Position numbers and translations under genes: made by a program
In this document: one piece after another, positions 36,588 to 64,000 of the stretch
How the letters are laid out: every line of letters starts with the position of its first letter
Numbering within the stretch: position 1 is the stretch's first letter
Origin: Branchiostoma floridae
Taxonomy: Eukaryota; Chordata; Leptocardii; Amphioxiformes; Branchiostomatidae
Direction: 5' to 3'
Assembly (NCBI RefSeq): GCF_000003815.2
Contig: NC_049986.1
Location: forward strand, 24,013,306-24,077,305
Length of the DNA: 64,000 nt
The notes under the pieces: model-generated
The model's database searches: none
What the model saw: only the letters and a program-made list of their open reading frames with translations
Told to the model about the DNA's origin: nothing

Positions 36588-36753
36588 ATGGACAACAACA
36601 AGGGACTTTTTGTACTGCTGACCTGCCTGGTCGTCTCCGACAGAGTCCAGGGAACGCTACAGTGAACGCGAACGTCCCAGAAAACGCTCATGTTGGGTAA
36701 ACCGTCACCGGTGTTCGGTCGGCCATAGGGGAAGAGAAGGAGGAAGTAAGATG
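36588..36753 (+). pseudogene. Truncated RTK 5' end, fragment 2
   Basis: Homology to the RTK signal peptide and cadherin start runs over about 166 bases. A one-base deletion after ACGCTACAG turns the frame into TGA (36663-36665) after 25 codons, and a second stop follows at GGGTAA. Homology ends at GAGGAAGTAAGATG, and upstream-type sequence of RTK-A follows. It is a non-coding relic. Confidence 0.82.
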
Positions 36754-37344: not shown

Positions 37345-40138
37345 ATGAAATTTTTCGTTCTCTTGACCGTCTACGTCTTGGTAGTCTCCGACAGAGTCCA
37401 GGGGACGCTACAGTTGTCAACGAAGGTTCCAGAGAACGCTCATGTTGGGGAAACCGTCACCAGTGTTCGGTCGGCCAAAGGGGAAGGTAGGGAGGAAGTG
37501 ATATGTAAAATCGTCGCCGGAGACAAGAACAGACGCTTCCTTGTGACCGACTGCGTGATCCAAGTGGCGCGTCCGTTGGATTACAGCGTCGACCCGAGCT
37601 ACAACCTCACGGTAAACGTCACCGGGTCCTCCGGAAACCCCGAGCAGCTGTATGTTGATGTACAAGTCCAAGACGTGGAGGGATACCCGCCTGTTTACAA
37701 CGACACGTGCGAAATGCCGACTCGAACAGCATGGGGGAATTCAGGCGATTTGAACGTCGATATGAAATGGACAGTCAAGGGCATGTCAATGAATATTGGA
37801 GAGGTGTTTTTCTCGAATCACTTTTATTACAATCCCAATAGTGTTAAGGACCAGGTTTCAACAAGAGTATACTCGGATAACAATAATTGTCTAGTGCAGT
37901 TTGTATGGAAGCCCATGAATGGCGATGATATCACTTTTATTAATTCGTTGTGGAGTACGTCGATAGAACGACCGTGCTTGAACTGTTCTGGATCAACAGA
38001 TGGGGCATCCGTCCTCCAATTTGAAGTATTGCACAGTTCTACAGGCTTTACTCCCAGTTCGTCTGGCAGCTGTTACACAGGGCCTATTCCTCAAACTGAT
38101 AGACAATTTATATTTGGTGGTTCGTTGACGATTTCATCCATGAAAAGGAATCTTTTCACATGCGACCTGCCAGACAATATCTCGGTCTCCTTAATTCCAC
38201 ATGGCAACGGTCGTGACATAATACCTCTACTTGTAGAGTTTGATGCCCAGCCAGTCGGATGTCCCCCTAACAAGTACGGCGTGTTGTGTGACCAGAACTG
38301 CACCTGTGAGAACGGTGCCCGCTGTCATGGGCTGAACGGGGCCTGCAAGTGTCAGCCTGGATGGCAGGGTGTCGTCTGCGACATACCTTACAGTACAGTG
38401 GTCATCATCGAGACCCCTGGCGACTCACGACGGATTTACATCTCCGGCACTGTTACGTTGCACTGCAAGGTTTTCCATCTGACTGCTGACAGGATGATGT
38501 GGACATTTCCTAATAAAACGGAAAAGTGGCTGCAGGGCGCTCAGGAAGATCGTGTAAGGATCCAAAACATACAGTCCGAACACAACGGTACCTACACCTG
38601 TACTGTGTTAACGGAAGATGGGGCGGCCATTAACGCAAGTTATGAGCTTCAGACCGTCGCTTGTCCTCCCGGAAAAACGGGTGAATCGTGCGAAGAGGAG
38701 TGCGTCTGTAGCCATGGCGGCAGCTGTGACAGGTGGGCCGGCTGTGTGTGTCCGCCGGGATGGACAGGAACCACGTGTCAGACCTCCTGCCCAGTTGGCA
38801 CCTACGGACAGGGTTGCAGCAGGCGGTGTCGGTGTCAGCATGACGCCACCTGCTTCCTTACCGACGGCCGGTGTAACTGCACGGAAGGCTGGTTCGGCAG
38901 TAACTGCAGCAGGCCCTGCCCCGCAGGTCGGTACGGATGGAAATGTTGGCATGCTTGTGCCTGTAAGAACAATGCCAAGTGTAACAACGTGGACGGAACC
39001 TGCGCCTGCGTGCCACCCTGGACTGGTAAGTTCTGTGACGTCATCGAAACGGACACATACACACTCCAGATTGTCATACCCCTGGTACTGACTCTGCTTG
39101 TTGCTGCACTAGTATTGCTAATACTCTACAAACGACAGAAGGCTAAACATGGGGCACAAGAAGAGCCTTTAGAGGAAACCAGAGTTCTTCTAGAGCTGAG
39201 AAACATGGAAGACGACCTGGCACAGAGTTTGCAGCCCGGCTGGCTCAACCGGTGGGAGAGGAACGCCGACGATCTGACTCTGAACGAACTGGTCGGGCTG
39301 GGCGCGTCCGCACAGATCAGGAAAGGACGGCTTCGAACGGCTGACGCTGACGTCACGGTGGCGGTCAAGTCCGTCCGCATAGAGGACAGGCGGTGCTACC
39401 GAGCCTTCTGCCGGGAAGTCGCCCCGCTGATAGCCGTGCACGAAAACCAGGGAGGAAGAAAAACGGGGGACATCCCAACATCGTCAAGCTCTTTGCGGTC
39501 CTCACGATGTCCACACCGAAGTGTATTCTCTTGGAATTTGCTGCCAAGGCGAACTTTTGCTCATTCTAAAACAACCTCAGCAGAACGGTCCTCTTGGCAG
39601 GTTTGTCCGTTATGCCGTCCAGATATCTCATGCCCTGGACGAGCTCCGACGTCTGCGTATCGCTCACGGTGACGTTGCCGCCCGAAACGTCCTGGTCAGC
39701 GGCGATGACGTGGCCAAACTTGCTGACTTCGGTCTGGCCCATGACGTGTACACCGAGACTACCTACGTGTCCGCAGTAAATAACGACGTCGACGAACTCC
39801 AGCCCATGAAGTGGATGGCTCTGGAGTCGCTGGAGTCTCGCGAGTTCACGTGCGAGAGCGACACGTGGTCGTTCGGCGTGCTGTTGTGGGAGATCGCCGC
39901 CTTCGGGGAGGAGCCCAGCTACCAGCGCCAGCGCCAACTGAGTTGTCCCAAGTTGGTGGGGCTCCTGAGGCAGGGGGTCCGTCTGGACAGGCCGCCCGGA
40001 TGTCCGGACAAGCTTTATGACGTCATGAAGTCGTGTTGGCGGGAGGAGCCGTCGGCAAGACCAGAGCCGGCAGAACTGGAGCAGAAGCTGACGGAATGTT
40101 GCCAAGAGTTGGACCCACTTCTGGCTGTGGATATTTAG
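37345..40138 (+). pseudogene. RTK-A: receptor tyrosine kinase, type I ectodomain, frameshifted kinase
   Basis: Same intronless plan as RTK-C: signal peptide (KFFVLLTVYVLVVSDRVQG), cadherin repeat, type I module, EGF, Ig, three EGF, membrane segment and kinase N-lobe. Against the intact copies it has a net two-base gain between 39442 and 39470 (GAAAACCAGGGAGG and AAAAACGGGGG) and a one-base loss near 39546 (GCCAAGGC for GCCAAAGGC). The first frame therefore ends at 39672 after 775 codons, before the catalytic loop; the rest of the kinase (GELLL... HGDVAARN ... LAVDI) is in another frame to the TAG at 40136-40138. A translated product would be a membrane receptor with glycine loop, lysine and alpha-C glutamate but no HGD or DFG: kinase-dead. 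The ectodomain is intact and close to RTK-C. Sequencing error is an alternative; two independent indels make it less likely. Confidence 0.85.
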
Positions 40139-42273: not shown

Positions 42274-45099
42274 ATGGACCACAACGTGGCATTTTTCATT
42301 CTCTTGACCTGCCTGGCCGTCTCCGACAGTGTCCAGGGAACGCTACAGTTCTCAGCAAACGTCCCAGAAAACGCTCACGCGGGGAAAACCGTCACCAGTG
42401 TACGGCCGGCCATAGGGGAAGGTCGGGAGGAAGTAAGATGTGAAATTGTCGCCGGAGACAAGAACAGACGCTTCCTTGTGACCAACTGTGTGATCCAAGT
42501 GGCGCGTCCGTTAGATTATAACGTCGACCCGAGCTATAACCTGACGGTAAACGTCACTAAGTCCTTCGGAAACCCCGAGCAGCTGTATGTTGATGTACAA
42601 GTCCAAGACGTGGAGGGATACCCGCCTGTTTACAACGACACGTGCGAAATGCCGACTCGGAATGGTCCGGGGAAGTCAGGCGATTTGAACCTAGATATGA
42701 AATTGACAGCCGAGGGTATTGCAATGGATGTAGGAGAGGTATTTGTCTCAAAATACATTCATTACGAAAAAGAAAGGGACCCATTTTCGATTTCAGAGCA
42801 GTATATTTTTTTCACCGATAACGAGAATTGTCTGGTGCAGGTGATATGGGAGCCATTCAATTCTTATGACACCATAACCGCTCAATCGCTCTCGGACTCC
42901 CTAGTAGAACAATGCGTGCAATGTGTTAGTTCGGCAGGCGTGGCATCCGTCGTCCAATTCGAAATATTTAAAAGGTGGTCCGGATTTAACCCAGAGGCAA
43001 AGAATTCCCGCAAATGTTATCTGGGGCCCATTCCTGAAACTGGGGGATACTTTATACTGGCCGGTTCATTCGTGCTTTCTTCCAACATCAAAAACCATTT
43101 TACGTGCAAGCTACCAGAAGATATCTCAATCTCTGTTTTTATAAATGATATGCATCAGAAAACAATACCTGTACGTTTAGAATTTGATTTCAAGCCAGTC
43201 GGATGTCCCTCTAACAAGTACGGCGTGTTTTGTGACCAGAACTGCACCTGTGAGAACGGTGCCCGCTGCCATGGGCTGAACGGGGCCTGCAAGTGTCAGC
43301 CTGGATGGCAGGGTGTCGTCTGCGACATACCTCACAGTACAGTGGTCATCATCGCGACCCCTGGCGACTCGACACGGATTCACATCACTGGCTCTGTAAC
43401 GCTGCACTGCAAGGTTTTCCATCTGGCTGCTGACAGGATGATGTGGACATTTCCTAATAAAACGGAAAAGTGGCTGCAGGGCGCTCAGGAAGATCGTGTA
43501 AGGATCCACAACATACAGTCCGAACACAACGGTACCTACACCTGTACTGTGTTAACGGCAGACGGGACTGCCATTAACGCAAGTTATGAGCTTCAGGCCG
43601 TGGCTTGTCCTCCCAGAAAAACGGGTGAAACGTGCGAAGAGGAGTGCGTCTGTAGCCATGGTGGCAGCTGTGACCGGTGGGCCGGCTGTGTGTGCCCGCC
43701 GGGATGGACAGGAAACACGTGTCAGACCTCCTGCCCAGTTGGCACCTACGGACAGGGTTGCAGCAGACGGTGTCGGTGTCAGCATGACGCCACCTGCTCC
43801 CCTACCGACGGCCGGTGTAACTGCACGGAAGGCTGGTTCGGCAGTAACTGCAGCAGGCCCTGCCCCGCAGGTCTGTACGGATGGAAATGTCGGCATGTTT
43901 GTGCCTGTAAGAACAACGCCACGTGTCACAACGTGGATGGAACCTGCGCCTGCGTGCCACCCTGGACTGGTACGAGGTGTGGCGACATCAAAACGGACAC
44001 ATACACATACACATTCCCGGTGTCTCTCCAGATTGCCACACCCCTGGTACTGACTCTGCTAGTCGCTGCACTAGTTTTGTTTATAGTCTATAAACGGAAG
44101 AAAGCTAGACGAGCGGAACATGAAAACAATCTAGAGGAGACCATGGTTGTACTGGAGCTGAGAAACATGGAAGAAGACCTGGCGCAGAGTTTGCAGCCCG
44201 GCTGGCTCAACCGGTGGGAGAGGAACGCCGACGATCTGACTTTGGACGAACTGGTCGGGCTGGGCGCGTTCGCACAGATCAGAAGAGGACGGCTTCGTAC
44301 GGCTGACGGTGACGTCACGGTGGCGGTCAAGTCCGTCCGCATGGAGGACAGGCGGTGCTACCGAGCCTTCTGCCGGGAAGTCGCCGCGCTGATAGCCGTG
44401 CACAAAAACGGTGAGGAAGAAAATGGCGGACATCCCAACATCGTCAAGCTCTTTGGGGTCGTCACGATATCCACACCAAAGTGTATTCTGTTGGAATTCG
44501 CTGCAAAAGGAGAACTTTTGCTCATTCTAAAACAACCTCGGCAGAACCATCCTCTTGGCAGGTTTGTCCGCTATGCCGTCCAGATATCCCGTGCCCTGGA
44601 GGAGCTCCGACGTCTGCGTATCGCTCACGGGGACGTGGCCGCCCGAAACGTCCTGGTCAGCGGCGATGACGTGGCCAAACTTGCTGACTTCGGTCTGGCC
44701 CACGACATCTACACCGAGACTACCTACGTGCCCGCAGTCAATGACGACGTCGACGAACTCCTGCCCCTGAAGTGGATGGCTCTGGAGTCGCTGGAGTCTC
44801 GCGAGTTCACGTGCGAGAGCGACACGTGGTCGTTCGGCGTGCTGCTGTGGGAGATCGCCACCTTCGGGGAGGAGCCCAGCTACCAGCGCCAGCGCCAACT
44901 GAGCTGTCCCAAGTTGGTGGGGCTCCTGAGGCAGGGGGTCCGTCTGGACAGGCCGCCCGGATGTCCGGACAAGCTGTATGACGTCATGAAGTCGTGTTGG
45001 CGGGAGGAGCCGTCGGCAAGACCAGAGCCGGCAGAACTGGAGCAGAGGCTGACGGGATGTGGCAAAGAGTTGGACCCACTTCTGGCTGTGGATAATTAA
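42274..45099 (+). CDS. RTK-B: intronless receptor tyrosine kinase, type II ectodomain
   Basis: A 941-residue single-frame membrane receptor. Signal peptide 1-22; cadherin-like repeat to about 121 (VPENAHAGKTV ... ARPLDY ... DVEGYPPVYND); type II form of the unrecognised module, about 129-310 (GPGKSGDLNLDMKLTAEGIA ... ISISVFINDMHQK); EGF (CTCENGARCHGLNGACKCQ); Ig with NGTYTC; three EGF repeats; membrane segment (ATPLVLTLLVAALVLFIVY); kinase with GLGAFA, VAVK, HGDVAARN, DFGLAHD and MALE. Many N-glycosylation sequons are present. The membrane-proximal and juxtamembrane stretch (KKARRAEHENNLEETMVVLE) also follows type II, shared with RTK-D. The frame is complete, with TAA at 45097-45099. ATG 42274 is chosen because it starts the signal peptide and aligns in all copies. 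Ligand unknown. Confidence 0.93.
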   Translation: MDHNVAFFILLTCLAVSDSVQGTLQFSANVPENAHAGKTVTSVRPAIGEGREEVRCEIVAGDKNRRFLVTNCVIQVARPLDYNVDPSYNLTVNVTKSFGNPEQLYVDVQVQDVEGYPPVYNDTCEMPTRNGPGKSGDLNLDMKLTAEGIAMDVGEVFVSKYIHYEKERDPFSISEQYIFFTDNENCLVQVIWEPFNSYDTITAQSLSDSLVEQCVQCVSSAGVASVVQFEIFKRWSGFNPEAKNSRKCYLGPIPETGGYFILAGSFVLSSNIKNHFTCKLPEDISISVFINDMHQKTIPVRLEFDFKPVGCPSNKYGVFCDQNCTCENGARCHGLNGACKCQPGWQGVVCDIPHSTVVIIATPGDSTRIHITGSVTLHCKVFHLAADRMMWTFPNKTEKWLQGAQEDRVRIHNIQSEHNGTYTCTVLTADGTAINASYELQAVACPPRKTGETCEEECVCSHGGSCDRWAGCVCPPGWTGNTCQTSCPVGTYGQGCSRRCRCQHDATCSPTDGRCNCTEGWFGSNCSRPCPAGLYGWKCRHVCACKNNATCHNVDGTCACVPPWTGTRCGDIKTDTYTYTFPVSLQIATPLVLTLLVAALVLFIVYKRKKARRAEHENNLEETMVVLELRNMEEDLAQSLQPGWLNRWERNADDLTLDELVGLGAFAQIRRGRLRTADGDVTVAVKSVRMEDRRCYRAFCREVAALIAVHKNGEEENGGHPNIVKLFGVVTISTPKCILLEFAAKGELLLILKQPRQNHPLGRFVRYAVQISRALEELRRLRIAHGDVAARNVLVSGDDVAKLADFGLAHDIYTETTYVPAVNDDVDELLPLKWMALESLESREFTCESDTWSFGVLLWEIATFGEEPSYQRQRQLSCPKLVGLLRQGVRLDRPPGCPDKLYDVMKSCWREEPSARPEPAELEQRLTGCGKELDPLLAVDN

Positions 45100-47076: not shown

Positions 47077-49875
47077 ATGGACAAAAACATGCCCTTTTTC
47101 GTCCTGTTGACCTGCCTGGTCGTCTCCGACAGTGTCCAGGGAACGCTAAAGTTGTCAGCGAACGTCCCAGAAAACGCTCACGCGGGGGAAACCGTCACCA
47201 GTGTTCGGTCGGCCATAGCGGAAGGTAGGGAGGAAGTAAAATGTGAAATTGTCGCCGGAAATAGGAACGGACGCTTCCGTGTGACAACCTGCGTGATCCA
47301 AGTGGCGCGTCCGTTGGATTACGGCGTCGACCCGACCTATAACCTCACGGTAAACGTCACCGGGTCCTCCGGAAACCCTGAGCAGCTGTATGTTGATGTA
47401 CAAGTCCAAGACGTGGAGGGATACCCGCCTGTTTACAACGACACGTGCGAAATGCCGACTCGGACAGCATGGGGGAACTCAGGCGATTTGAACGTCGATA
47501 TGAAATGGACAGTCAAGGGCATGTCAATGAATATTGGAGAGGTGTTTTTCTCGAATCACTTTTATTACAATCCCAATAGTGTTAAGGACCAGGTTTCAAC
47601 AAGAGTATACTCGAATAACAATAATTGTCTAGTGCAGTTTGTATGGAAGCCCATGAATAGCGATGATATCACTTTTATTGATTCGTTGTGGAGTACGTCG
47701 ATAGAACGACCGTGCTTGAACTGTTCTGGATCAACAGATGGGGCATCCGTCCTCCAATTTGAAGTATTGCACAGTTCTACAGGCTTTACTCCCAGTTCGT
47801 CTGGCAGCTGTTACACAGGGCCTATTCCTCAAACTGATAGACAATTTATATTTGGTGGTTCGTTGACGATTTCATCCATGAAAAGGAATCTTTTCACATG
47901 CGACTTGCCAGACAATATCTCGGTCCCCTTAATTCCACATGGCAACGGTCGTGACATAATACCTCTACTTGTAGAGTTTGATGCCCAGCCAGTCGGATGT
48001 CCCCCTAACAAGTACGGCGTGTTGTGTGACCAGAACTGCACCTGTGAGAACGGTGCTCGCTGCCATGGGCTGAACGGGGCCTGCAAGTGTCAGCCTGGAT
48101 GGCAGGGTGTCATCTGTGACATACCTTACAGTACAGTGGTCATCATCGAGACCCCTGGCGACTCACGACGGATTTACATCTCCGGCACTGTTACGTTGCA
48201 CTGCAAGGTTTTCCATCTGACTGCTGACAGGATGATGTGGACATTTCCTAATAAAACGGAAAAGTGGCTGCAGGGCGCTCAGGAAGATCGTGTAAGGATC
48301 CAAAACATACAGTCCGAACATAATGGTACCTACACCTGTACTGTGTTAACGGAAGATGGGGCGGCCATTAACGCAAGTTATGAGCTTCAGGCCGTCGCTT
48401 GTCCTCCCGAAAAAACGGGTGAATCGTGCGAAGAGGAGTGCGTCTGTAGCCATGGCGGCAGCTGTGACAGGTGGGCCGGCTGTGTGTGTCCGCCGGGATG
48501 GACAGGAACCACGTGTAAGACCTCCTGCCCAGTTGGCACCTACGGACAGGGTTGCAGCAGGCGGTGTCGGTGTCAGTATGACGCCACCTGCTTCCCTACC
48601 GACGGCCGGTGTAACTGCACGGAAGGCTGGTTCGGCAGTAACTGCAGCAGGCCCTGCCCCGCAGGTCGGTACGGATGGAAATGTTGGCATGCTTGTGCCT
48701 GTAAGAACAATGCCAAGTGTAACAACGTGGACGGAACCTGCGCCTGCGTGCCACCCTGGACTGGTAAGTTCTGTGACGTCATCGAAACGGACACATACAC
48801 AATCCAGATTGTCATACCCCTGGTACTGACTCTGCTTGTTGCTGCACTAGTATTGCTAATACTCTACAAACGACAGAAGGCTAAACATGGGGCACAAGAA
48901 GAGCCTTTAGAGGAAACCAGAGTTCTTCTAGAGCTGAGAAACATGGAAGATGACCTTGCACAGAGTTTGCAGCCCGGCTGGCTCAACCGGTGGGAGAGGA
49001 ACGCAGACGATCTGACTCTGGACGAACTGGTCGGGCTGGGCGCGTCCGCACAGATCAGAAGAGGACGGCTTCGAACGGCTGACGCTGACGTCACGGTGGC
49101 GGTCAAGTCCGTCCGCATAGAGGACAGGCGGTGCTACCGAGCCTTCTGCCGGGAAGTCGCCGCGCTGATAGCCGTGCATGAAAACAGTGAGGAAGAAAAT
49201 GGCGGACATCCCAACATCGTCAAGCTCTTTGGGGTCGTCACGATGTCCACACCGAAGTGTATTCTCTTGGAATTTGCTGCCAAAGGCGAACTTTTGCTCA
49301 TTCTAAAACAACCTCGGCAGAACCGTCCTCTTGGCAGGTTTGTCCGCTATGCCGTCCAGATATCCCGTGCCCTGGAGGAGCTCCGACGTCTGCGTATCGC
49401 TCATGGTGACGTGGCCGCCCGAAACGTCCTGGTCAGCGGCGATGACGTGGCCAAACTTGCTGACTTCGGTCTGGCCCATGACGTGTACACCGAGACTACC
49501 TACGTGCCCGCAGTCAATGACGACGTCGACGAACTCCTGCCCCTGAAGTGGATGGCTCTGGAGTCGCTGGAGTCTCGCGAGTTCACGTGCGAGAGCGACA
49601 CGTGGTCGTTCGGCGTGCTGCTGTGGGAGATCGCCGCCTTCGGGGAGGAGCCCAGCTACCAGCGCCAGCGCCAACTGAGTTGTCCCAAGTTGGTGGGGCT
49701 CCTGAGGCAGGGGGTCCGTCTGGACAGGCCGCCGGGATGTCCGGACAAGCTGTATGACGTCATGAAGTCGTGTTGGCGGGAGGAGCCGTCGGCAAGACCA
49801 GAGCCGGCAGAACTGGAGCAGAGGCTGACGGAATGTTGCCAAGAGTTGGACCCACTTCTGGCTGTTGATAATTAA
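47077..49875 (+). CDS. RTK-C: intronless receptor tyrosine kinase, type I ectodomain
   Basis: 932 residues in one frame; used here as reference. Signal peptide 1-22; cadherin-like repeat 23-121 (PEN at 31-33, LDY at 80-82); type I unrecognised module about 129-307; EGF 308-348; Ig 351-438 (Cys376, Trp388, Cys421); three EGF repeats 442-567; membrane segment about 577-597; tyrosine kinase 647-918. Kinase residues: GLGASA at 653-658 (third glycine of the loop replaced), Lys677, Glu693, HGDVAARN from His776 with Asp778, DFG 796-798, activation-loop tyrosines 804 and 809, and MALE 826-829 in place of APE. Catalytic Lys, Asp and DFG are intact, so activity is possible. The tail is only about 14 residues, with no tyrosine docking sites after the kinase. 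It lies between RTK-B and RTK-D on the same strand. Confidence 0.93.
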   Translation: MDKNMPFFVLLTCLVVSDSVQGTLKLSANVPENAHAGETVTSVRSAIAEGREEVKCEIVAGNRNGRFRVTTCVIQVARPLDYGVDPTYNLTVNVTGSSGNPEQLYVDVQVQDVEGYPPVYNDTCEMPTRTAWGNSGDLNVDMKWTVKGMSMNIGEVFFSNHFYYNPNSVKDQVSTRVYSNNNNCLVQFVWKPMNSDDITFIDSLWSTSIERPCLNCSGSTDGASVLQFEVLHSSTGFTPSSSGSCYTGPIPQTDRQFIFGGSLTISSMKRNLFTCDLPDNISVPLIPHGNGRDIIPLLVEFDAQPVGCPPNKYGVLCDQNCTCENGARCHGLNGACKCQPGWQGVICDIPYSTVVIIETPGDSRRIYISGTVTLHCKVFHLTADRMMWTFPNKTEKWLQGAQEDRVRIQNIQSEHNGTYTCTVLTEDGAAINASYELQAVACPPEKTGESCEEECVCSHGGSCDRWAGCVCPPGWTGTTCKTSCPVGTYGQGCSRRCRCQYDATCFPTDGRCNCTEGWFGSNCSRPCPAGRYGWKCWHACACKNNAKCNNVDGTCACVPPWTGKFCDVIETDTYTIQIVIPLVLTLLVAALVLLILYKRQKAKHGAQEEPLEETRVLLELRNMEDDLAQSLQPGWLNRWERNADDLTLDELVGLGASAQIRRGRLRTADADVTVAVKSVRIEDRRCYRAFCREVAALIAVHENSEEENGGHPNIVKLFGVVTMSTPKCILLEFAAKGELLLILKQPRQNRPLGRFVRYAVQISRALEELRRLRIAHGDVAARNVLVSGDDVAKLADFGLAHDVYTETTYVPAVNDDVDELLPLKWMALESLESREFTCESDTWSFGVLLWEIAAFGEEPSYQRQRQLSCPKLVGLLRQGVRLDRPPGCPDKLYDVMKSCWREEPSARPEPAELEQRLTECCQELDPLLAVDN

Positions 49876-50032
49876 CAAATTGTTTTATGATGTTTAGATC
49901 TTCCTGTTGTGAATAATTGACAAACTGTACAAATTTCTTAATGACAGCAAATTAATTCAGGTTTTGAATTTTTTCTGACACGTTCGAAAAATTTGGAAAT
50001 ATGATACGAAGAGAGGTGATATATGGTGCATA

Positions 50033-50727: not shown

Positions 50728-50741
50728 TAATTGCACAGGCC

Positions 50742-50744
<3 letters not shown>

Positions 50745-50780
<36 letters not shown>
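50745..50780. repeat. (TA)n microsatellite
   Basis: 36 bases of pure TA repeat just outside the right end of the TIR element. Confidence 0.97.
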
Positions 50781-50783
<3 letters not shown>

Positions 50784-52592: not shown

Positions 52593-55394
52593 ATGGACCA
52601 CAACGCGGCATTTCTCGTTCTCTTGACCTGCCTGGCCGTCTCCGACAGTGTCCAGGGAACGCTGCAGTTGTCAGCAAACGTCCCAGAAAAAGCTCACGCG
52701 GGGAAAACCGTCACCAGTGTACGGCCGGCCATAGGGGAAGGTCGGGAGGAAGTAAGATGTGAAATTGTCGCAGGAGACAAGAATAGACGCTTCCTTGTGA
52801 CCAACTGTGTGATCCAAGTGGCGCGTCCGTTAGATTATAACGTCGACCCGAGCTATAACCTGACGGTAAACGTCACTGGGTCCTTCGGAAACCCCGAGCA
52901 GCTGTATGTTGATGTACAAGTCCAAGACGTGGAGGGGTACCCGCCTGTTTACAACGACACGTGCGAAATGCCGACTCGGAATGGTCCGGGGAAGTCAGGC
53001 GATTTGAACCTAGATATGAAATTTACAGCCGAGGGTATTGCGATGGATGTAGGAGAGGTATTTGTCTCAAAATACATTCATTACGAAAAAGAAAGGGACC
53101 CATTTTCGATTTCAGAGCAGTACATTTTTTTCACCGATAACGAGAATTGTCTGGTGCAGGTGATATGGGAGCCATTCAATTCTTATGACACCATAACCGC
53201 TCAATCGCTCTCGGACTCCCTAAAACAATGCGTACAATGTGTTAGTTCGGCAGGCGTGGCATCCGTCGTCCAATTCGAAATATTTAAAAGGTGGTCCGGA
53301 TTTAACCCAGAGGCAAAGAATTCCCGCAAATGTTATTTTGGGCCCATTCCTGAAACTGGGGGATACTTTATACTGGCCGGTTCATTCGTGCTTTCTTCCA
53401 ACATCAAAAACCATTTTACGTGCAAGCTGCCAGAAGATATCTCAATCTCTGTTTTTATAAATGATATGCATCAGAAAACAATACCTGTACGTTTAGAATT
53501 TGATTTCAAGCCAGTCGGATGTCCCTCTAACAAGTACGGCGTGTTTTGTGACCAGAACTGCACCTGTGAGAACGGTGCCCGCTGTCATGGGCTGAACGGG
53601 GCCTGCAAGTGTCAGCCTGGATGGCAGGGTGTCGTCTGCGACATACCTCACAGTACAGTGGTCATCATCGCGACCCCTGGCGACTCGACACGGATTCACA
53701 TCACTGGCTCTATAACGCTACACTGCAAGGTTTTCCATCTGGCTGCTGACAGGATGATGTGGACATTTCCTAATAAAACGGAAAAGTGGCTGCAGGGCGC
53801 TCAGGAAGATCGTGTAAGTATCCACAACATACAGTCCGAACACAACGGTACTTACACCTGTACTGTGTTAACGGGAGACGGGGCGGTCATTAACACAAGT
53901 TATGAGCTTCAGGCCGTGGCTTGTCCTCCCGGAAAAACGGGTGAGTCGTGCGAAGAGGAGTGCGTCTGTAGCCATGGTGGCAGCTGTGACCGGTGGGCCG
54001 GCTGTGTGTGTCCGCCGGGATGGACAGGAACCACGTGTCAGACCTCCTGCCCAGTTGGTACCTACGGACAGGGTTGCAGCAGGCGGTGTCGGTGTCAGCA
54101 TGACGCCACCTGCTCCCCTACCGACGGCCGGTGTAACTGCACGGAAGGCTGGTTCGGCAGTAACTGCAGCAGGCCCTGCCCCGCAGGTCTGTACGGAAGG
54201 AAATGTCGGCATGTTTGTGCCTGTAAGAACAACGCCACGTGTCACAACGTGGACGGAACCTGCACCTGCGTGTCACCCTGGACTGGTAAGTTGTGTGACG
54301 TCATAAAAAAGGACCCATTCCCGTTGTCACTCCAGATTGCCACACCCCTGATACTGACTCTGCTAGTCGCTGCACTAGTTTTGTTTATTTTCTATAGACG
54401 AAAGAAAGCTAGACAAGCGGAAAATGAAAACAATGTAGAGGAGACCATGGTTGTACTGGAGCTGAGAAACATGGAAGAAGACTTGGCGCAGGGTTTGCAG
54501 CCCGGCTGGCTCCATCGGTGGGAGAGGAACGCCGACGACCTGACTCTGGACGAACTGGTCGGGCTGGGCGCGTCCGCACAGATCAGGAGAGGACGGCTTC
54601 GTACGGCTGGCGCTGACGTCACGGTGGCGGTCAAGTCCGTCCGCATAGAGGATAGGCGGTGCTACCGAGCCTTCTGCCGGGAAGTCGCCGCGCTGGTAGC
54701 CGTGCACGAAAATAGTGAGGAAGAAAATGGCGGACATCCCAACATCGTCAAGCTCTTTGGGGTCGTCACGATGTCTTCACCGAAGTGTATTCTGTTGGAA
54801 TTTGCTGCCAAAGGCGAACTTTTGCTCATTCTAAAACAACCTCGGCAGAATCGTCCTCTTGGCAGGTTTGTTCGCTATGCCGTCCAGATATCCTGTGCCC
54901 TGGACGAGCTCCGACGTCTGCGTATCGCTCACGGTGACGTGGCCGCCCGAAACGTCCTGGTCAGCGGCGATGACGTAGCCAAACTTGCTGACTTCGGTCT
55001 GGCCCATGACGTCTACACCGAGACTACTTACGTGTCCGCAGACAATGACGACGTCGACGAACTCCTGCCCCTGAAGTGGATGGCTCTGGAGTCGCTGGAG
55101 TCTCGCGAGTTCACGTGCGAGAGCGACACGTGGTCGTTCGGCGTGCTGCTGTGGGAGATCGCCGCCTTCGGGGAGGAGCCCAGCTACCAGCGCCAGCGCC
55201 AACAGAGCTGTCCCAAGTTGGTGGGGCTCCTGAGGCAGGGGGTCCGTCTGGACAGGCCGCCCGGATGTCCGGACAAGCTGTATGACGTCATGAAGTCGTG
55301 TTGGCGGGAGGAGCCGTCGGCAAGACCAGAGCCGGCAGAACTGGAGCAGAGGCTGACAGAATGTGGCCATGAGTTGGACCTCGTTCATAATTAA
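52593..55394 (+). CDS. RTK-D: intronless receptor tyrosine kinase, type II ectodomain
   Basis: 933 residues, same domain order as RTK-B and closest to it. It shares the type II module (GPGKSGDLNLDMKFTAEGIA) but lacks two residues there (SLKQCVQ for SLVEQCVQ). The membrane-proximal segment is shorter (KKDPFPLSLQIATPLILTLL). The juxtamembrane KARQAENENNVEETMVVLE is type II. The kinase keeps GLGASA, VAVK, HGDVAARN, DFG and MALE. The C terminus differs: HELDLVHN replaces the ELDPLLAVD ending of the others. The frame is intact from signal peptide (NAAFLVLLTCLAVSDSVQG) to TAA at 55392-55394. Confidence 0.93.
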   Translation: MDHNAAFLVLLTCLAVSDSVQGTLQLSANVPEKAHAGKTVTSVRPAIGEGREEVRCEIVAGDKNRRFLVTNCVIQVARPLDYNVDPSYNLTVNVTGSFGNPEQLYVDVQVQDVEGYPPVYNDTCEMPTRNGPGKSGDLNLDMKFTAEGIAMDVGEVFVSKYIHYEKERDPFSISEQYIFFTDNENCLVQVIWEPFNSYDTITAQSLSDSLKQCVQCVSSAGVASVVQFEIFKRWSGFNPEAKNSRKCYFGPIPETGGYFILAGSFVLSSNIKNHFTCKLPEDISISVFINDMHQKTIPVRLEFDFKPVGCPSNKYGVFCDQNCTCENGARCHGLNGACKCQPGWQGVVCDIPHSTVVIIATPGDSTRIHITGSITLHCKVFHLAADRMMWTFPNKTEKWLQGAQEDRVSIHNIQSEHNGTYTCTVLTGDGAVINTSYELQAVACPPGKTGESCEEECVCSHGGSCDRWAGCVCPPGWTGTTCQTSCPVGTYGQGCSRRCRCQHDATCSPTDGRCNCTEGWFGSNCSRPCPAGLYGRKCRHVCACKNNATCHNVDGTCTCVSPWTGKLCDVIKKDPFPLSLQIATPLILTLLVAALVLFIFYRRKKARQAENENNVEETMVVLELRNMEEDLAQGLQPGWLHRWERNADDLTLDELVGLGASAQIRRGRLRTAGADVTVAVKSVRIEDRRCYRAFCREVAALVAVHENSEEENGGHPNIVKLFGVVTMSSPKCILLEFAAKGELLLILKQPRQNRPLGRFVRYAVQISCALDELRRLRIAHGDVAARNVLVSGDDVAKLADFGLAHDVYTETTYVSADNDDVDELLPLKWMALESLESREFTCESDTWSFGVLLWEIAAFGEEPSYQRQRQQSCPKLVGLLRQGVRLDRPPGCPDKLYDVMKSCWREEPSARPEPAELEQRLTECGHELDLVHN

Positions 55395-57709: not shown

Positions 57710-60532
57710 ATGGACAAAAACGTGACATTTTTCGTTCTCTTGACCGTCTACGTCTTGGTAGTCTCCGACAGAGTACTAGTGCTGGGAACGCTACAGTTGT
57801 CAACGAAGGTTCCAGAGAACGCTCATGTTGGGGAAACGGTCACCAGTGTTCGGCCGGCCACAGAGGAAGGTCGGGAGGAAGTAAGATGTGAAATTGTCGC
57901 CGGAGACAAGAACAGACGCTTCCGTGTGACCGACTGCGTGATCCAAGTGGCCCGTCCGTTGGATTACGGCGTTAACCCGAGTTATAACCTCATGGTAAAC
58001 GTCACCGGGTCCTCCGGAAACCCCGAGCAGCTGTATGTTGATGTACAAGTCCAAGACGTGGAGGGATACCCGCCTGTTTACAACGACACGTGCGAAATGC
58101 CGACTAGGACAGCATGGGGGAACTCAGGCGATTTGAACGTCGATATGAAATGGACAGTCAAGGGCATGTCAATGAGTATCGGAGAGGTGTTTGTCTCGAA
58201 TCACTTTTATTACAATCCCAATAGTATGAAGGACCAGGTTTCAACAAGAGTATACTCAGATAACAACGATTGTCTAGTGCAGTTTGTATGGAAGCCCATG
58301 AATGACGATGATATCACTTTTATTAATTCGTTGTGGAGGACGTCGAAAGAACGAAAGTGCTTGAACTGTTCTGGATCAACAGATAGGGCATCCGTCCTCC
58401 AATTTGAAGTATTGCACAGTTCTACAGGCTTTACTCCCAGTTCGTCTGGCAGCTGTTACACAGGGCCTATTCCTCAAACTGATAGACAATTTATATTTGG
58501 TGGTTCGTTGACGATTTCATCCATGAAAAGAAATCTTTTCACATGCGACCTGCCGGACAATATCTCGGTCTCCTTAATTCCACATGGCAACGGTCGTGAC
58601 GTAATACCTCTACTTGTAGAGTTTGATGCCCAGCCAGTCGGATGTCCCCCTAACAAGTACGGCGTGTTGTGTGACCAGAACTGCACCTGTGAGAACGGTG
58701 CCCGCTGTCATGGGCTGAACGGGGCCTGCAAGTGTCAGCCTGGATGGCAGGGTGTCGTCTGCGACATACCTCACAGTACAGTGGTCATCATCGAGACCCC
58801 TAGCGACTCACGACGGATTTACATCTCCGGCACTGTTACGTTGCACTGCAAGGTTTTCCATCTGACTGCTGACAGGATGATGTGGAAATTTCCTAATAAA
58901 ACGGAAAAGTGGCTGCAGGGCGCTCAGGAAGATCGTGTAAGGATCCACAAAATACAGTCCGAACATAACGGTACCTACACCTGTACTGTGTTAACGGGAG
59001 ACGGGACTGCCATTAACGCAAGTTATGAGCTTCAGGCCGTCGCTTGTCCTCCCGGAAAAACGGGTGAATCGTGCGAAGAGGAGTGCGTCTGTAGCCATGG
59101 CGGCAGCTGTGACCGGTGGGCCGGCTGTGTGTGTCCGCCGGGATGGACAGGAACCACGTGTCAGACCTCCTGCCCAGTTGGCACCTACGGACAGGGTTGC
59201 AGCAGGCGGTGTCGGTGTCAGCATGACGCCACCTGCTCCCCTACCCACGGCCGGTGTAACTGCACGGAGGGCTGGTTCGACAATAACTGCAGCAGGCGCT
59301 GCCCCGCAGGTCGGTACGGATGGAAATGTCGGCATGCTTGTGCCTGTAAGAACAATGCCAAGTGTAACAACGTGGACGGAACCTGCGCCTGCGTGTCACC
59401 CTGTACTGGTAAGTTGTGTGACGTCATCGAAACGGAAACATACACGTTCCCGTTGTCACTCCAGATTGCCATACCCCTGGTACTGACTCTTCTAGTCACT
59501 GCACCAGTAGTGTTGATACTGTACAAACGGAAGAAGGCTAAACATGATGCACAAGAAGAGCCTTTAGAGGAAACCAGAGTTCTTCTAGAGCTGAGAAGCA
59601 TGGAGGACGACCTGGCGCAGAGTTTACAGCCCGGCTGGCTCAACCGGTGGGAGAGGAACGCCGACGATCTGACTCTGGACGAACTGATCGGGCTGGGCGC
59701 GACTGCACAGATCAGGAAAGGACGGCTTCGCACGGCTGACGCTGACGTCACGGTGGCGGTCAAGTCCGTCCGCATAGAGGACAGGCGGTGCTACCGAGCC
59801 TTCTGCCGGGAAGTCGCCGCGCTGATAGCCGTGCACGAAAACAGTGAGGAAGAAAATGGCGGACATCCCAACATCGTCAAGCTCTTTGGGGTCGTCACGA
59901 TGTCCACACCGAAGTGTATTCTCTTGGAATTTGCTGCTAAAGGCGAACTTTTGCTCATTCTTAAACAACCTCGGCAGAACCGTCCTCTTGGCAGGTTTGT
60001 CCGCTATGCCGTCCAGATATCCCGTGCCCTGGAGGAGCTCCGACGTCTGCGTATCGCTCACGGTGACGTGGCCGCCCGAAACGTCCTGGTCAGCGGCGAT
60101 GACGTGGCCAAACTTGCTGACTTCGGTCTGGCCCATGACGTGTACACCGAGACTACCTACGTGCCCGCAGTAAATGACGACGTCGACGAACTCCTGCCCC
60201 TGAAGTGGATGGCTCTGGAGTCGCTGGAGTCTCGCGAGTTCACTTGCGAGAGCGACACGTGGTCTTTTGGCGTGCTGCTGTGGGAGATCGCCGCCTTCGG
60301 GGAGGAGCCCAGCTACCAGCGCCAGCGCCAACTGAGTTGTCCCAAGTTGGTGGGGCTCCTGAGGCAGGGGGTCCGTCTGGACAGGCCGCCCGGATGTCCG
60401 GACAAGCTGTATGACGTCATGAAGTCGTGTTGGCGGGAGGAGCCGTCGGTAAGACCAGAGCCGGCAGAACTGGAGCGAAGGCTGACGGAATGTTGCCAAG
60501 AGTTGGACCCACTTCTGGCTGTGGATATTTAG
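57710..60532 (+). CDS. RTK-E: intronless receptor tyrosine kinase, type I ectodomain
   Basis: 940 residues. Signal peptide about 1-26 (NVTFFVLLTVYVLVVSDRV, then LVLG), like that of RTK-A; cadherin repeat; type I module (GDLNVDMKWTVKGMSMSIGE); EGF; Ig (Lys in place of Thr in MMWKFPNK); three EGF with a Trp-to-Cys change in SPCTGKLC; membrane segment (IPLVLTLLVTAPVVLILYK), containing a proline; kinase with GLGATA, VAVK, HGDVAARN, DFG and MALE. The membrane-proximal part (TFPLSLQIA..., KRKKAKH) mixes type II features with a type I juxtamembrane stretch (AQEEPLEETRVLLEL). The frame is complete, with TAG at 60530-60532. The extra Cys in the last EGF gives an odd cysteine count there. Confidence 0.93.
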   Translation: MDKNVTFFVLLTVYVLVVSDRVLVLGTLQLSTKVPENAHVGETVTSVRPATEEGREEVRCEIVAGDKNRRFRVTDCVIQVARPLDYGVNPSYNLMVNVTGSSGNPEQLYVDVQVQDVEGYPPVYNDTCEMPTRTAWGNSGDLNVDMKWTVKGMSMSIGEVFVSNHFYYNPNSMKDQVSTRVYSDNNDCLVQFVWKPMNDDDITFINSLWRTSKERKCLNCSGSTDRASVLQFEVLHSSTGFTPSSSGSCYTGPIPQTDRQFIFGGSLTISSMKRNLFTCDLPDNISVSLIPHGNGRDVIPLLVEFDAQPVGCPPNKYGVLCDQNCTCENGARCHGLNGACKCQPGWQGVVCDIPHSTVVIIETPSDSRRIYISGTVTLHCKVFHLTADRMMWKFPNKTEKWLQGAQEDRVRIHKIQSEHNGTYTCTVLTGDGTAINASYELQAVACPPGKTGESCEEECVCSHGGSCDRWAGCVCPPGWTGTTCQTSCPVGTYGQGCSRRCRCQHDATCSPTHGRCNCTEGWFDNNCSRRCPAGRYGWKCRHACACKNNAKCNNVDGTCACVSPCTGKLCDVIETETYTFPLSLQIAIPLVLTLLVTAPVVLILYKRKKAKHDAQEEPLEETRVLLELRSMEDDLAQSLQPGWLNRWERNADDLTLDELIGLGATAQIRKGRLRTADADVTVAVKSVRIEDRRCYRAFCREVAALIAVHENSEEENGGHPNIVKLFGVVTMSTPKCILLEFAAKGELLLILKQPRQNRPLGRFVRYAVQISRALEELRRLRIAHGDVAARNVLVSGDDVAKLADFGLAHDVYTETTYVPAVNDDVDELLPLKWMALESLESREFTCESDTWSFGVLLWEIAAFGEEPSYQRQRQLSCPKLVGLLRQGVRLDRPPGCPDKLYDVMKSCWREEPSVRPEPAELERRLTECCQELDPLLAVDI

Positions 60533-62510
60533 ATCCTTGTGTGGGTAACAAATGTAAAGTAGGACAGCTTGCAATATGAATTTTTGATTATGCAAACAAA
60601 TTTAAAGCCTGCTTGTGGGTCGAAATACGGAGATATTGATCTAGTTTGTTTATTGTTTTTCGACCCTTTCATTATATCAAATATCTGAATAAGTAGGAAG
60701 TTTTTTTCGTGCATTCAAGCCTTTCGGAGACAGATGTTAATCAGGGTACCTACATTAGAATCTGTCTGTGTGTTCATTGTAGAAAACTTTGAATATTGTT
60801 AATTAGAGCTTCGTATTTTTAAAGATTTACCTTTATTCAACCTTGATACATTTTCGGCCTAAGCCGTTACTCCGTATACGTATGTTACTTTACGTAACTT
60901 TTACAGATTATACATTGTTAGAACATGTTTGCCATAACGAAATGTTATATCGATGAATTTTGCAATCATCATTCATTAATGTATGAGATATGTGCATATT
61001 TTAGGTATTATAGACAGTTTATCAGAGGGACCATAACGGTTAGTACGCATGTGTTAGACATGTTAGTATGCTCGACGCTTTTTTATGTACCATGTCCAAA
61101 ATGCTGCAACAGTCTTGCACTCTATTATTTAGTATATTTGTTTCTGAAGTGTTTTGTTTCTAAAGAATGTACATTGTTAGCTATCTAGAAATGAACGTTG
61201 GCCATTTTTACTGTTTTGTTTGTAAACCAGATGACATAAAACAAACAATAAACGTGGTGTCAAAAACAATTGATTGACTCACGTCATTAAAGAATGCTTG
61301 CATGTAGTTTCTACGTCCTGTTTTTAACGTCTTAAAGTACAGGAAGATTGGCTACGTACAAATTTATGTATGAAAGCTTTTAGGCTGTATAAAGTATCCA
61401 AGTATACTAGCTTTTGTAAGCTTGGCCGTCGCTATGTACGAACCAGATTGCACAAGTCGCTCCTTAGCCCCTTTGAGTGGTGAAAATCGGTCACAATTGG
61501 ACGAACCATTGTTGGGTCCGCGGTTCTGTTTTTGGTTAACCTCCAAGCAGATCCTACGGTGCCATACGATAGTATCAAAGCTGACCAATGAGTATAGCCG
61601 GACAAATGGAGTTAAATGGGCCCCGGAGTGGAACTGCTTGGAGATTACTTTTGGTCGCCCTGTCAGTCAAGTATGCAAAACATGCTGATCTTGTTACATA
61701 ACATTTTAAGCAGTAGACGGTTTAAATGGCAGCTGTCAAATGCCAGTTTGTTTGGAGAGGACATCCATTTGATTTATACAACGCTTTCGTCTTGCAATCA
61801 GGAGGTCGAACCGACAATTTGCGATTTTTTCTAAACATCTATTTGATATATAATATAAAGTATATAGTTAATACGTCTTGCAGAGGTGCCCGTTAAATGA
61901 CGGCCTTATCTTCAGTAGGGCACCCTAATCTGAGAACACGGATAAGGAAGACATGAGAGGCAAATAGAATGTGCTGGTCAGCTAGCCACCAAATAATACT
62001 CATTTTCGTAGAGGCGAAAATGACAGCTTTTTCAAAAGCACTGCTTTAGTTCTTGACTCAGCCGCTCGGTCAACCTGCAAGATCTTTGTCTCCAGACGTA
62101 ACTTAATACTTTGTTTTTCTCGCCTTTGGCTTTTCTGGGCCCTACCATTTCCCTACCTAAAAACGGGGGCTTCTTCAAAACACAACAATAATTGTGTGAG
62201 TCTCGTCATGATAGCCTGTTTTCGCAAGGTTTGCCGTCGCTATGAAAGAATCAGTTTCCACCGGTCCCTTTTTGGGCCGGTTGTAGTGCTGAAAACCGGT
62301 CAGAAGTGGACCAACTATTGTTGGGCTCACTGTTCTGTTCTGGTCCCCTCTGGCAGTCAGGTACTGAACATACCGATCCTGTTACGTGACGGTATAAGCA
62401 GGCTTAGGTTCTATTTACGCAAGAAAAAACTTTTTGTTTGGAGAGGACAGTGTGCTTGTGAAGCTAGCCCTCTGGGTTAGATCCGCCCAGACGAGCTAAG
62501 AACACTCAAC
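60533..62510 (+). other. RTK-E to RTK-F intergenic unit
   Basis: The 3' flank (AATAAA 61247-61252) is almost identical to that of RTK-A. The distal module from about 61415 is split by the 111-base element at 61537-61647 and its core is decayed (TTACATAACATTTTAAGC). From about 61970 the sequence is nearly identical to the upstream region of RTK-C, with TTACGTGA (62382-62389) and TATAAG (62393-62398) 113 bases before the RTK-F start. Confidence 0.6.
61537..61647. mobile_element. Small MITE with TAACCTCC...GGAGATTA ends (hAT-like)
   Basis: Absent from the equivalent site in the other spacers. Inverted ends TAACCTCCAAGCAG / CTGCTTGGAGATTA enclose 111 bases. It is flanked by TTTTTGGT and CTTTTGGT (61529-61536 and 61648-61655), an 8-base duplication with one change, as hAT elements make. 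Same family as 12890-13205. Confidence 0.7.
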
Positions 62511-64000
62511 ATGGACAAAAACATGCCCTTTTTCGTCCTGTTGACCTGCCTGGCCGTCCTCGACAGTGTCCAGGGAACCCTACAGTTGTCAGCGAACGTC
62601 CCAGAAAACGCTCACGCGGGGGAAACCGTCACCAGTGTTCGGTCGGCCATAGGGGAAGGTAAAGAGGAAGTAAGATGTGAAATTGTCGCCGGAGACAAGA
62701 ACAGGCGCTTCAGTGTTACAAACTGCGTGATCCAGGTGGCCCGTCCGTTGGATTACGGCGTCGACCCGACTTATAACCTCACGGTAAACGTCATCGGGTC
62801 CTCCGGAAACCCCGAGCAGCTGTATGTTGATGTGCAAGTCCAAGACGTGGAGGGATACCCGCCTGTTTACAACGACACGTGCGAAATGCCGACTCGAACA
62901 GCATGGGGGAATTCAGGCGATTTGAACGTCGATATGAAATGGACAGTCAAGGGCATGTCAATGAATATTGGAGAGGTGTTTTTCTCGAATCACTTTTATT
63001 ACAATCCCAATAGTGTTAAGGACCAGGTTTCAACAAGAGTATACTCGGATAACAATAATTGTCTAGTTCAGTTTGTATGGAAGCCCATGAATGGAGATGA
63101 TATCACTTTTATTAATTCGTTGTGGAGTACGTCGATAGAACGACCGTGCTTGAACTGTTCTGGATCACCAGATGGGGCATCCGTCCTCCAATTTGAAGTA
63201 TTGCACAGTTCTACAGGCTTTACTCCCAGTTCGTCTGGCAGCTGTTACACAGGGCCTATTCCTCAAACTGATAGACAATTTATATTTGGTGGTTCGTTGA
63301 CGATTTCATCCATGAAAAGGAATCTTTTCACATGCGACCTGCCGGACAATATCTCGGTCTCCTTAATTCCACATGGCAACGGTCGTGACATAATACCTCT
63401 ACTTGTAGAGTTTGATGCCCAGCCAGTCGGATGTCCCCCTAACAAGTACGGCGTGTTGTGTGACCAGAACTGCACCTGTGAGAACGGTGCTCGCTGCCAT
63501 GGGCTGAACGGGGCCTGCAAGTGTCAGCCTGGATGGCAGGGTGTCATCTGTGACATACCTTACAGTACAGTGGTCATCATCGAGACCCCTGGCGACTCAC
63601 GACGGATTTACATCTCCGGCACTGTTACGTTGCACTGCAAGGTTTTCCATCTGACTGCTGACAGGATGATGTGGACATTTCCTAATAAAACGGAAAAGTG
63701 GCTGCAGGGCGCTCAGGAAGATCGTGTAAGGATCCAAAACATACAGTCCGAACATAATGGTACCTACACCTGTACTGTGTTAACGGAAGATGGGGCGGCC
63801 ATTAACGCAAGTTATGAGCTTCAGGCCGTCGCTTGTCCTCCCGAAAAAACGGGTGAATCGTGCGAAGAGGAGTGCGTCTGTAGCCATGGCGGCAGCTGTG
63901 ACAGGTGGGCCGGCTGTGTGTGTCCGCCGGGATGGACAGGAACCACGTGTCAGACCTCCTGCCCAGTTGGCACCTACGGACAGGGTTGCAGCAGGCGGTG
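62511..64000 (+). CDS. RTK-F: receptor tyrosine kinase, type I ectodomain, 3' end outside window
   Basis: The open frame starts at ATG 62511 (MPFFVLLTCLAVLDSVQG after MDKN) and has no stop up to the window edge, 496 codons. It covers signal peptide, cadherin repeat, type I module, EGF, Ig and the start of the EGF triplet (to CSRRC). It is closest to RTK-C, including the PPEKTGES and GVICDIP variants, but has SNCSGSPDGA-type and GKEEVRCE differences. One cadherin glycosylation sequon is lost (TVNVIGSS for TVNVTGSS). The transmembrane and kinase parts lie beyond the window, so their integrity is unknown. Confidence 0.9.
   Translation, partial: MDKNMPFFVLLTCLAVLDSVQGTLQLSANVPENAHAGETVTSVRSAIGEGKEEVRCEIVAGDKNRRFSVTNCVIQVARPLDYGVDPTYNLTVNVIGSSGNPEQLYVDVQVQDVEGYPPVYNDTCEMPTRTAWGNSGDLNVDMKWTVKGMSMNIGEVFFSNHFYYNPNSVKDQVSTRVYSDNNNCLVQFVWKPMNGDDITFINSLWSTSIERPCLNCSGSPDGASVLQFEVLHSSTGFTPSSSGSCYTGPIPQTDRQFIFGGSLTISSMKRNLFTCDLPDNISVSLIPHGNGRDIIPLLVEFDAQPVGCPPNKYGVLCDQNCTCENGARCHGLNGACKCQPGWQGVICDIPYSTVVIIETPGDSRRIYISGTVTLHCKVFHLTADRMMWTFPNKTEKWLQGAQEDRVRIQNIQSEHNGTYTCTVLTEDGAAINASYELQAVACPPEKTGESCEEECVCSHGGSCDRWAGCVCPPGWTGTTCQTSCPVGTYGQGCSRR

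Follow-up and report, generated by a model that had tools for sequence, protein, structure and literature searches.

A tandem array of receptor tyrosine kinase genes in Branchiostoma floridae and a genome-wide family with one strongly diverse ectodomain module

The array and the structure of its genes

The stretch of Branchiostoma floridae DNA analysed here (the window; 64,000 nucleotides of contig NC_049986.1, forward-strand positions 24,013,306 to 24,077,305) contains six receptor tyrosine kinase (RTK) genes arranged head-to-tail, with a start-to-start spacing of 4.8-5.5 kb. Table 1 presents the coordinates of the genes, of selected domains and of two remnants of further copies. A first-pass annotation made from the letters alone had proposed a tandem array of at least six copies. 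The array is real and six is the number within the window; followed beyond it, the count rises to ten (C8:24050641-24099266), of which eight are complete and the first and tenth are broken. In copy 1 the kinase region is disrupted by frame changes and resumes in another frame (39434-40138), and in the tenth copy the kinase occupies a separate frame. A single run of 100 N is found elsewhere in the window.

Table 1. Features of the array in the window
Feature	Position	Strand	Remarks
Remnant, first ~39 codons of a further copy	31307..31423	+	tblastn, 74%
Remnant, first ~55 codons of a further copy	36588..36751	+	tblastn, 76% and 65%
Copy 1	37345..40138	+	X type A; broken, with a first frame at 37345-39672 and kinase sequence in other frames up to 40138
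Copy 1, module X plus a few adjacent codons	37672..38268	+	type A
Copy 2	42274..45099	+	RTK frame uninterrupted over 941 aa; X type B
Copy 2, module X plus a few adjacent codons	42607..43212	+	type B
Copy 3	47077..49875	+	RTK frame uninterrupted over 932 aa; X type A; serves as reference copy
Cadherin repeat of copy 3	47140..47415	+	aa 22-113
Copy 3, module X plus a few adjacent codons	47410..48006	+	type A
Three EGF-like repeats of copy 3	48397..48777	+	aa 441-567, Tie2-like
Tyrosine kinase of copy 3	48988..49872	+	aa 638-932, HGDVAARN catalytic loop
Copy 4	52593..55394	+	RTK frame uninterrupted over 933 aa; X type B
Copy 4, module X plus a few adjacent codons	52926..53528	+	type B
Copy 5	57710..60532	+	RTK frame uninterrupted over 940 aa; X type A
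Copy 5, module X plus a few adjacent codons	58055..58651	+	type A
Copy 6	62511..64000	+	X type A; exits the window, complete in the genome (932 aa)
Copy 6, module X plus a few adjacent codons	62844..63440	+	type A

Copies 2-5 are each a single open frame of 932-941 codons without an intron in the coding region, a feature overlooked in the first pass and from which the broken copy 1 departs. Among the family members fetched from the genome, 31 of 33 have an uninterrupted single frame and the remaining two are broken copies. As read in 23 of the 33 fetched genes, with the signal peptide and transmembrane (TM) helix identified by eye, the predicted order is signal peptide, cadherin, module X, EGF, Ig, three EGF-like repeats (EGF3), TM and kinase. 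The hallmarks of the RTK superfamily are therefore present in the form of a signal peptide, an ectodomain, one TM and a cytoplasmic kinase (PF07714, E 9e-63 in copy 3). In the same copy, the cadherin (E 9e-8) exceeds the Pfam cut-off and the Ig domain (Ig_3, E 5e-7) barely does so; the cadherin score falls under the cut-off in copies 1 and 4. The EGF repeats each fall under the cut-off when taken individually, yet the Ig-EGF3 segment aligns with Tie2. One family member, L062, gives no Pfam Ig match and is missing most of EGF3.

With the broken members L013 and L022 excluded, the catalytic residues of the kinase are kept almost throughout: the VAVK Lys in 30 of 31 members (L061 has Asn in its place), the HxD Asp, catalytic-loop Asn and DFG Gly in all 31, and the DFG Asp in 30, the last case being an alignment gap. 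On these grounds the family kinases are presumably active. The catalytic loop of the window clade reads HGD and not HRD.

A genome-wide family and its likeness to known receptors

Searches of the genome place at least 117 kinase loci on 18 contigs. At 74 loci or more, an ectodomain match and a kinase lie together in a single frame that has no stop and is 850 codons or longer. The first figure draws on 119 of 137 rows, the 18 omitted being weaker kinases and those on C16, pieces of loci already counted, and short fragments on C12, C15 and C4. For the second, 124 kinase and 124 ectodomain rows were paired where their open frames had the same length, reached 850 aa and contained no stop. Set aside were 46 kinase rows with shorter frames or a stop, which are broken or possibly intron-bearing; among the other 78, C10:15166933 and C16:16614229 have no ectodomain match and two rows are pieces of one C6 locus in different frames. 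Counted by hand, 21 of these 74 have an ectodomain match confined to the cadherin part, and one match extends to query position 186. Since 121 of 421, 130 of 161 and 134 of 457 candidates were scored, all family counts are lower bounds. In a tally of subtelomeric placement over 23 of the 35 clusters, those on contigs of available length, 11 lie within the terminal 10% at one or other contig end (binomial p 0.0025, KS p 0.04); neighbouring clusters are not independent of one another.

Amphioxus tyrosine kinases were surveyed by D'Aniello et al. in 2008, in a paper whose title reportedly announces gene expansion. Passages in PMC6060547, PMC8662651, PMC12837073 and PMC2754479 cite that survey. 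Among the matches listed in a literature search, no title or opening of an abstract dealt with an intronless amphioxus RTK family.

Judged from predicted domains, the whole architecture fits none of the RTK families tested (Tie, RET and FGFR), which within that set supports the first-pass view that the order matches no RTK family. The nearest likeness in the ectodomain is to Tie2, of which the stretch 158-319 (the Ig end and EGF1-3) aligns with the family at E 6e-16, or 4.6e-17 with a shorter query. The remainder of the Tie2 ectodomain is unmatched, whereas the family has a cadherin, module X and an uninterrupted coding frame. Pfam scans of three window proteins and eight others found no FN3 and at most one Ig region, unlike Tie. 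Turning to the kinase, the best 60 of 2639 PDB matches are EGFR (as a double chain), FGFR and RET, and none is Tie. Within those 60, the kinase profile gives FGFR3 as the best single-copy match (253.6 bits) and RET at 241.2 bits. In a separate search, a single-sequence query places ABL1 (162.0 bits) slightly above FGFR4 (158.1 bits). The kinase appears to resemble those of FGFR and RET. The RET ectodomain comprises four cadherin-like domains and a cysteine-rich domain, with no known EGF or Ig; the family has one cadherin match followed by X-EGF-Ig-EGF3, an arrangement that RET is not known to have. The FGFR ectodomain, according to a passage of PMC2754479, consists of three Ig domains, and the same 11 Pfam-scanned proteins of the family have no such three-Ig ectodomain.

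Module X and the conflicting histories of the gene segments

Module X is about 155-195 aa in length and has four invariant cysteines, kept in all 16 members of an alignment in which the range of L010 is an estimate that includes eight residues beyond X. Any given Pfam family matched at most one of these 16 members, and a PDB sequence search with X returned a single match at E 0.42, taken as chance. AlphaFold predictions of X for the six window copies were discarded (pLDDT 29.4 and 28.4).

X is the only strongly diverse module of the ectodomain, and in three clusters it stands out as a block of old divergence. Pooled synonymous divergence in X is 0.50 in the C8 cluster, 0.44 in C7 and 0.67 in C12, against 0.07-0.26, 0.13-0.19 and 0.08-0.19, respectively, in the six other domains. 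The first-pass annotation spoke of a conserved kinase and a variable ectodomain. The former is borne out by low kinase divergence within clusters compared with X; the latter applies to module X, the cadherin, EGF, Ig and EGF3 being much more alike among copies. Within the C8 array, nine copies divide into types A and B, between which synonymous divergence is 0.66 in X and 0.06-0.34 in the other domains, climbing at aa ~121-160 and dropping at ~281-301. (L013 and L022 are truncated in this comparison, and L022 enters no group mean.) Over ungapped 300-nt stretches of X, identity is 77-78% between types and 98-99% within a type. A mutation hot spot in X is rejected by a dS of only 0.04 among copies of each type. 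Exchange of X between clusters is likewise unsupported, its identity being at most 32% between the C8, C7 and C12 groups and 38-99% within them. Nor does codon constraint alone account for the low dS of the framework around X, as between-cluster dS there runs from 0.50 to saturation, with the exception of the C12-C1 kinase (0.30).

The same mosaic pattern recurs in three clusters on three contigs, and the copies differ in X, spacing and flanks. Both observations tell against an assembly artefact, in which uncollapsed haplotypes or misjoined repeats would have created the array. The great similarity of the tandem copies, the broken state of both array ends and the run of N are what such an artefact could leave, but we consider it very improbable.

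Several lines of evidence show that the segments of these genes have different histories. Trees of X, of the cadherin and of EGF1-kinase, built without the broken members, are mutually rejected in six AU-test comparisons (p from 0.014 down to 2e-81), although by the SH test the X tree is still allowed by the cadherin data (p 0.09). GC3 was compared in 23 of the 33 fetched genes. All 23 have a lower value in X than in the cadherin and EGF1, and 22 have a lower value in X than in Ig, EGF3 and kinase, counts that are not independent because the members are related. In all four pairs tried, synonymous differences cluster in X beyond 10,000 permutations, one of them narrowly (42.0 against a maximum of 41.5); circular shifts attain the observed clustering in 1 of 910, 23 of 906, 9 of 888 and 18 of 910 cases. 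Two pairs of genes ~1.4 Mb apart have a dS of 0-0.08 in EGF1, Ig, EGF3 and kinase, and in the same frames X stands at 0.29 and 1.12 and the cadherin at 0.22 and 0.29. A C1 gene compared with the C12 cluster has a dS of 0.09-0.19 at kinase aa 761-880 and mostly above 0.7 N-terminal of the kinase. Together, the tree conflict and the lower GC3 in X point to gene conversion, probably in preference to another recombination process, that homogenises the framework and spares X.

Flanking DNA was searched by blastn from five query copies (L001, L006, L017, L024 and L005). The C8 array copies have flanks in common, as tandem duplicates do, and L005 on C15 has the coding sequence of the C8 copies but only ~40 bp of flank in common with them. 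Upstream of L024 on C12, blastn found no counterpart in the other members of its cluster; downstream, matches occur in four of five mates, long in L027 and L029 and short in L025 and L028. One explanation for such unrelated flanks, and for the absence of coding-frame introns from all 31 unbroken fetched members, is serial retroposition, with every locus a recent retrocopy of an active source gene. The flank of L005 would suit this proposal. The common flanks within the C8 array do not, and recent retrocopies would also have X in common, yet X is far older than the rest. Among the candidates scored, which are part of all candidates, no intron-bearing parent gene was found. Serial retroposition is thus improbable, while one old founding retroposition is compatible with the explanation that we prefer below.

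A stronger contender is that the mosaic arose passively: alignable parts were converted, and X, weakly constrained, drifted past the identity that conversion needs, with no special role in recognition. Conversion in an already diverged X may indeed fail passively. Group means of dN/dS are higher in X (0.38-0.64) than in the kinase (0.29-0.40), in keeping with weaker constraint, and the unmatched upstream flank of L024 fits as well. Set against this, X is kept as a module with its four cysteines inside uninterrupted frames, and the near identity of X within types A and B means that it can stay alike among some copies. A passive origin is accordingly possible but somewhat unlikely. Since the group means in X are not above 1, positive selection on X is not claimed; for recent pairs, dN/dS in X is 0.84-1.14 in three C7 pairs and 0.16-0.58 in three C12 pairs.

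A possible recognition repertoire

The explanation that we favour, with modest confidence, is that this large intronless RTK family is a recognition-receptor repertoire in which X serves as a ligand cassette and signalling is held in common. Each gene would encode one receptor, with an N-terminal cadherin repeat, a diversified cysteine-containing X, a conserved and partly Tie-like EGF-Ig-EGF3 stalk, a TM helix and an FGFR/RET-like kinase. Conversion between gene copies, acting within arrays, across more than 1 Mb and in one case between chromosomes, would keep the framework and kinase alike, and the receptors would therefore signal in the same way. X would evade homogenisation and retain old divergent versions, so that different receptors would bind different ligands. 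The diversity of X would then have been selected, and X itself would be the ligand-binding part. Copies that are alike except for one outward-facing module are the pattern expected if each recognises something different and sends the same signal.

A specifically immune or allorecognition system, the role suggested in the first-pass annotation, is a narrower proposal. The copy number, the dynamics of the array and the combination of a single variable external module with a common kinase all fit it. An HGD catalytic loop is a feature of plant immune receptor kinases, and its presence in the window clade in place of HRD adds a point by analogy only. However, receptors built in this way would also suit recognition between neurons or gametes, and we regard a specifically immune role as rather doubtful.

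For the broader recognition repertoire, clustered protocadherins offer a parallel in mode and not in homology. Passages of PMC1852091 describe them as tandem receptor genes with large coding exons. In each gene one part is kept uniform by regional gene conversion while further ectodomain repeats remain diverse, and GC3 is higher where conversion has acted. Regional homogenisation, tree conflict and a diverse external part recur in the amphioxus family, where conversion is the likely mechanism. Clustered protocadherins are not RTKs and their homogenised part is the C-terminal ectodomain, whereas here homogenisation extends to both sides of one internal module. Unlike them, each gene of the family also has its own kinase, and the loci are dispersed over many contigs.

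By extension, and only tentatively, the family could act as an RTK identity code, in which more than one hundred intronless loci supply selection-diversified X cassettes on a conversion-uniform kinase and the set of X modules expressed distinguishes cells or individuals. This reading covers either an RTK counterpart of the clustered protocadherins or an innate recognition repertoire outside the known classes of immune receptor. Animals usually have few RTKs, encoded by multi-exon genes that are each conserved, and humans have ~58 in all. By that measure, a family of this size, intronless where read and carrying one strongly diverse module in a homogenised framework, would be an unusual RTK repertoire. 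The sharp prediction of the repertoire reading is that ligand specificity resides in module X. The family also provides a natural case of ectopic homogenisation that ends at the same domain edges in three clusters.

Tandem intronless receptor genes in the window

Six receptor tyrosine kinase (RTK) gene copies lie head-to-tail in the window (C8:24013306-24077305) and belong to an array of ten (C8:24050641-24099266) in an assembly of 513.4 Mb, which bears out the tandem array of at least six proposed in the first-pass annotation. Copies 2-5 each form one complete open frame of 932-941 codons, copy 6 crosses the window edge and is complete when read from the genome, and copy 1 shifts frame within the kinase; in the whole array, copies one and ten are broken. 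The term intronless refers to coding frames read from genome sequence; untranslated parts may contain introns. In copy 3, the reference copy, the kinase, Ig and cadherin domains all exceed the Pfam cut-off. The cadherin match of copies 1 and 4 falls under that cut-off, as does each single EGF repeat. Between the cadherin and the first EGF lies module X, which matched no Pfam family and had no convincing match among PDB sequences. Other features of the window are listed below; a transmembrane (TM) exon recognized by eye among the CUB exons probably forms one gene with them.

Other features of the window
Feature	Window position	Strand	Evidence
Open frame, 1431 aa, tetratricopeptide-repeat-rich, entering from the left edge	1-4293	+	TPR_12, E 7e-125
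CUB-domain exons	~5740-9582	-	Two exons at E 3e-8, one at 3e-5
Run of 100 N, among CUB exons	6591-6690		
Two DNA/RNA non-specific endonuclease (PF01223) stretches	20206-21237	-	E 8e-6; 0.004 (under cut-off)

Divergence centered on module X

Along the array, X follows the order A, B, A, B, A, A, B, A, B and then a third type. Identity between types A and B is 47-48% in X and 91-97% in the kinase; the earlier description of a conserved kinase with a variable ectodomain holds for the kinase and X, but the other ectodomain modules are far less divergent. Mean synonymous divergence between the types reaches 0.66 in X, compared with 0.06-0.34 for other domains, its edges coincide with the X borders, and the same X-centered pattern is found in the C7 and C12 gene clusters. 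Faster mutation of X is argued against by a difference of 0.04 inside either type. The frame's synonymous sites are in turn free to change, since its divergence between clusters runs from 0.50 to saturation; the exception is the C12-C1 kinase (0.30), a low value traced to a tract at aa 761-880 (0.09-0.19).

Further evidence points to regional homogenization. For 12 members, trees of X, cadherin and EGF1-kinase were mutually rejected by the AU test, the weakest conflict arising when the cadherin data were tested against the X tree (AU p 0.014, SH p 0.09). Mean GC3 is 0.45 in X versus 0.52-0.64 in other domains, and a study on fugu protocadherins uses GC3 as a signature of regional gene conversion (PMC1852091). 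Two pairs of C8 members ~1.4 Mb apart, L008/L009 and L010/L012, have EGF1, Ig, the three EGF-like repeats (EGF3) and kinase in common but not X and cadherin. Cadherin divergence in the C12 cluster is just 0.08, although blastn matched the upstream flank of its member L024 to none of the other cluster members; the downstream flank has matches in some of them. We suggest that X would bind ligand and that the shared stalk and kinase would deliver a common signal, with conversion holding the signaling half uniform as X remains diverse. Such receptors might serve the immune or allorecognition role proposed in the first-pass annotation. The diversity of X may be selected; group means of dN/dS in X are 0.38-0.64, and the divergence of X may by itself stop conversion there.

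The family across the genome

Searching the genome with the kinase of a distant member returned family members first, at no fewer than 117 kinase loci on 18 contigs (a minimum), followed by kinases at most 39% identical and short fragments. At least 74 loci, counted by pairing kinase with ectodomain rows, carry both matches in a single frame that runs 850 codons or more without a stop; these form 35 clusters on 14 contigs, and in 21 pairings (counted by hand) the ectodomain match is limited to the cadherin part. Frames are uninterrupted in 31 of 33 fetched members (889-1054 codons from the first ATG), the other two, L013 and L022, being the array's broken copies. By alignment, domain order is kept in fetched C1, C7, C10, C11 and C12 members. 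Cadherin is absent from the Pfam matches of L024 and L063, and L062 (C9) gave no match for Ig and is missing most of EGF3. Among the portion of genome candidates scored, no intron-bearing close relatives were found. No title or abstract listed in the literature searched concerned the intronless state or X mosaic of these RTKs; D'Aniello et al. (2008) may already cover part of the RTK expansion.

Clusters (C1, C7, C8, C12 and others) tend toward contig ends: of the 23 on contigs of known length, 11 fall in the first or last 10% of the contig. Separately, G000:C16:16614229-16619973 holds two kinases in long open frames of 900 and 624 aa, with ~39% identity to this family and no ectodomain match, which are possibly a sister family.

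Kinship and sequence motifs

Among the PDB matches listed, the kinase profile scored 253.6 bits against FGFR3 and 241.2 against RET, a ranking topped by an EGFR double chain because two copies were summed. A single-sequence query gave ABL1 (162.0 bits) and FGFR4 (158.1 bits) behind the same chain. The sequence of Tie2 aligns with the family's Ig-EGF3. Cadherin repeats typically carry PEN, LD and DxNDNxP motifs; window copies retain the first two and have DVEGYPPVYN at the DxNDNxP position. Of 31 members, 10 have HRD in the catalytic loop and 21, the window clade among them, have HGD. C-terminal tails that we take to be class I PDZ-like end 20 of the 31 unbroken fetched members (L010, L012, L014-L021, L023-L030, L061 and L063) and none of the window copies. 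In L061 (C10:15169400-15172400), Asn replaces the VAVK lysine of the kinase, a substitution by which this member is a possible pseudokinase.
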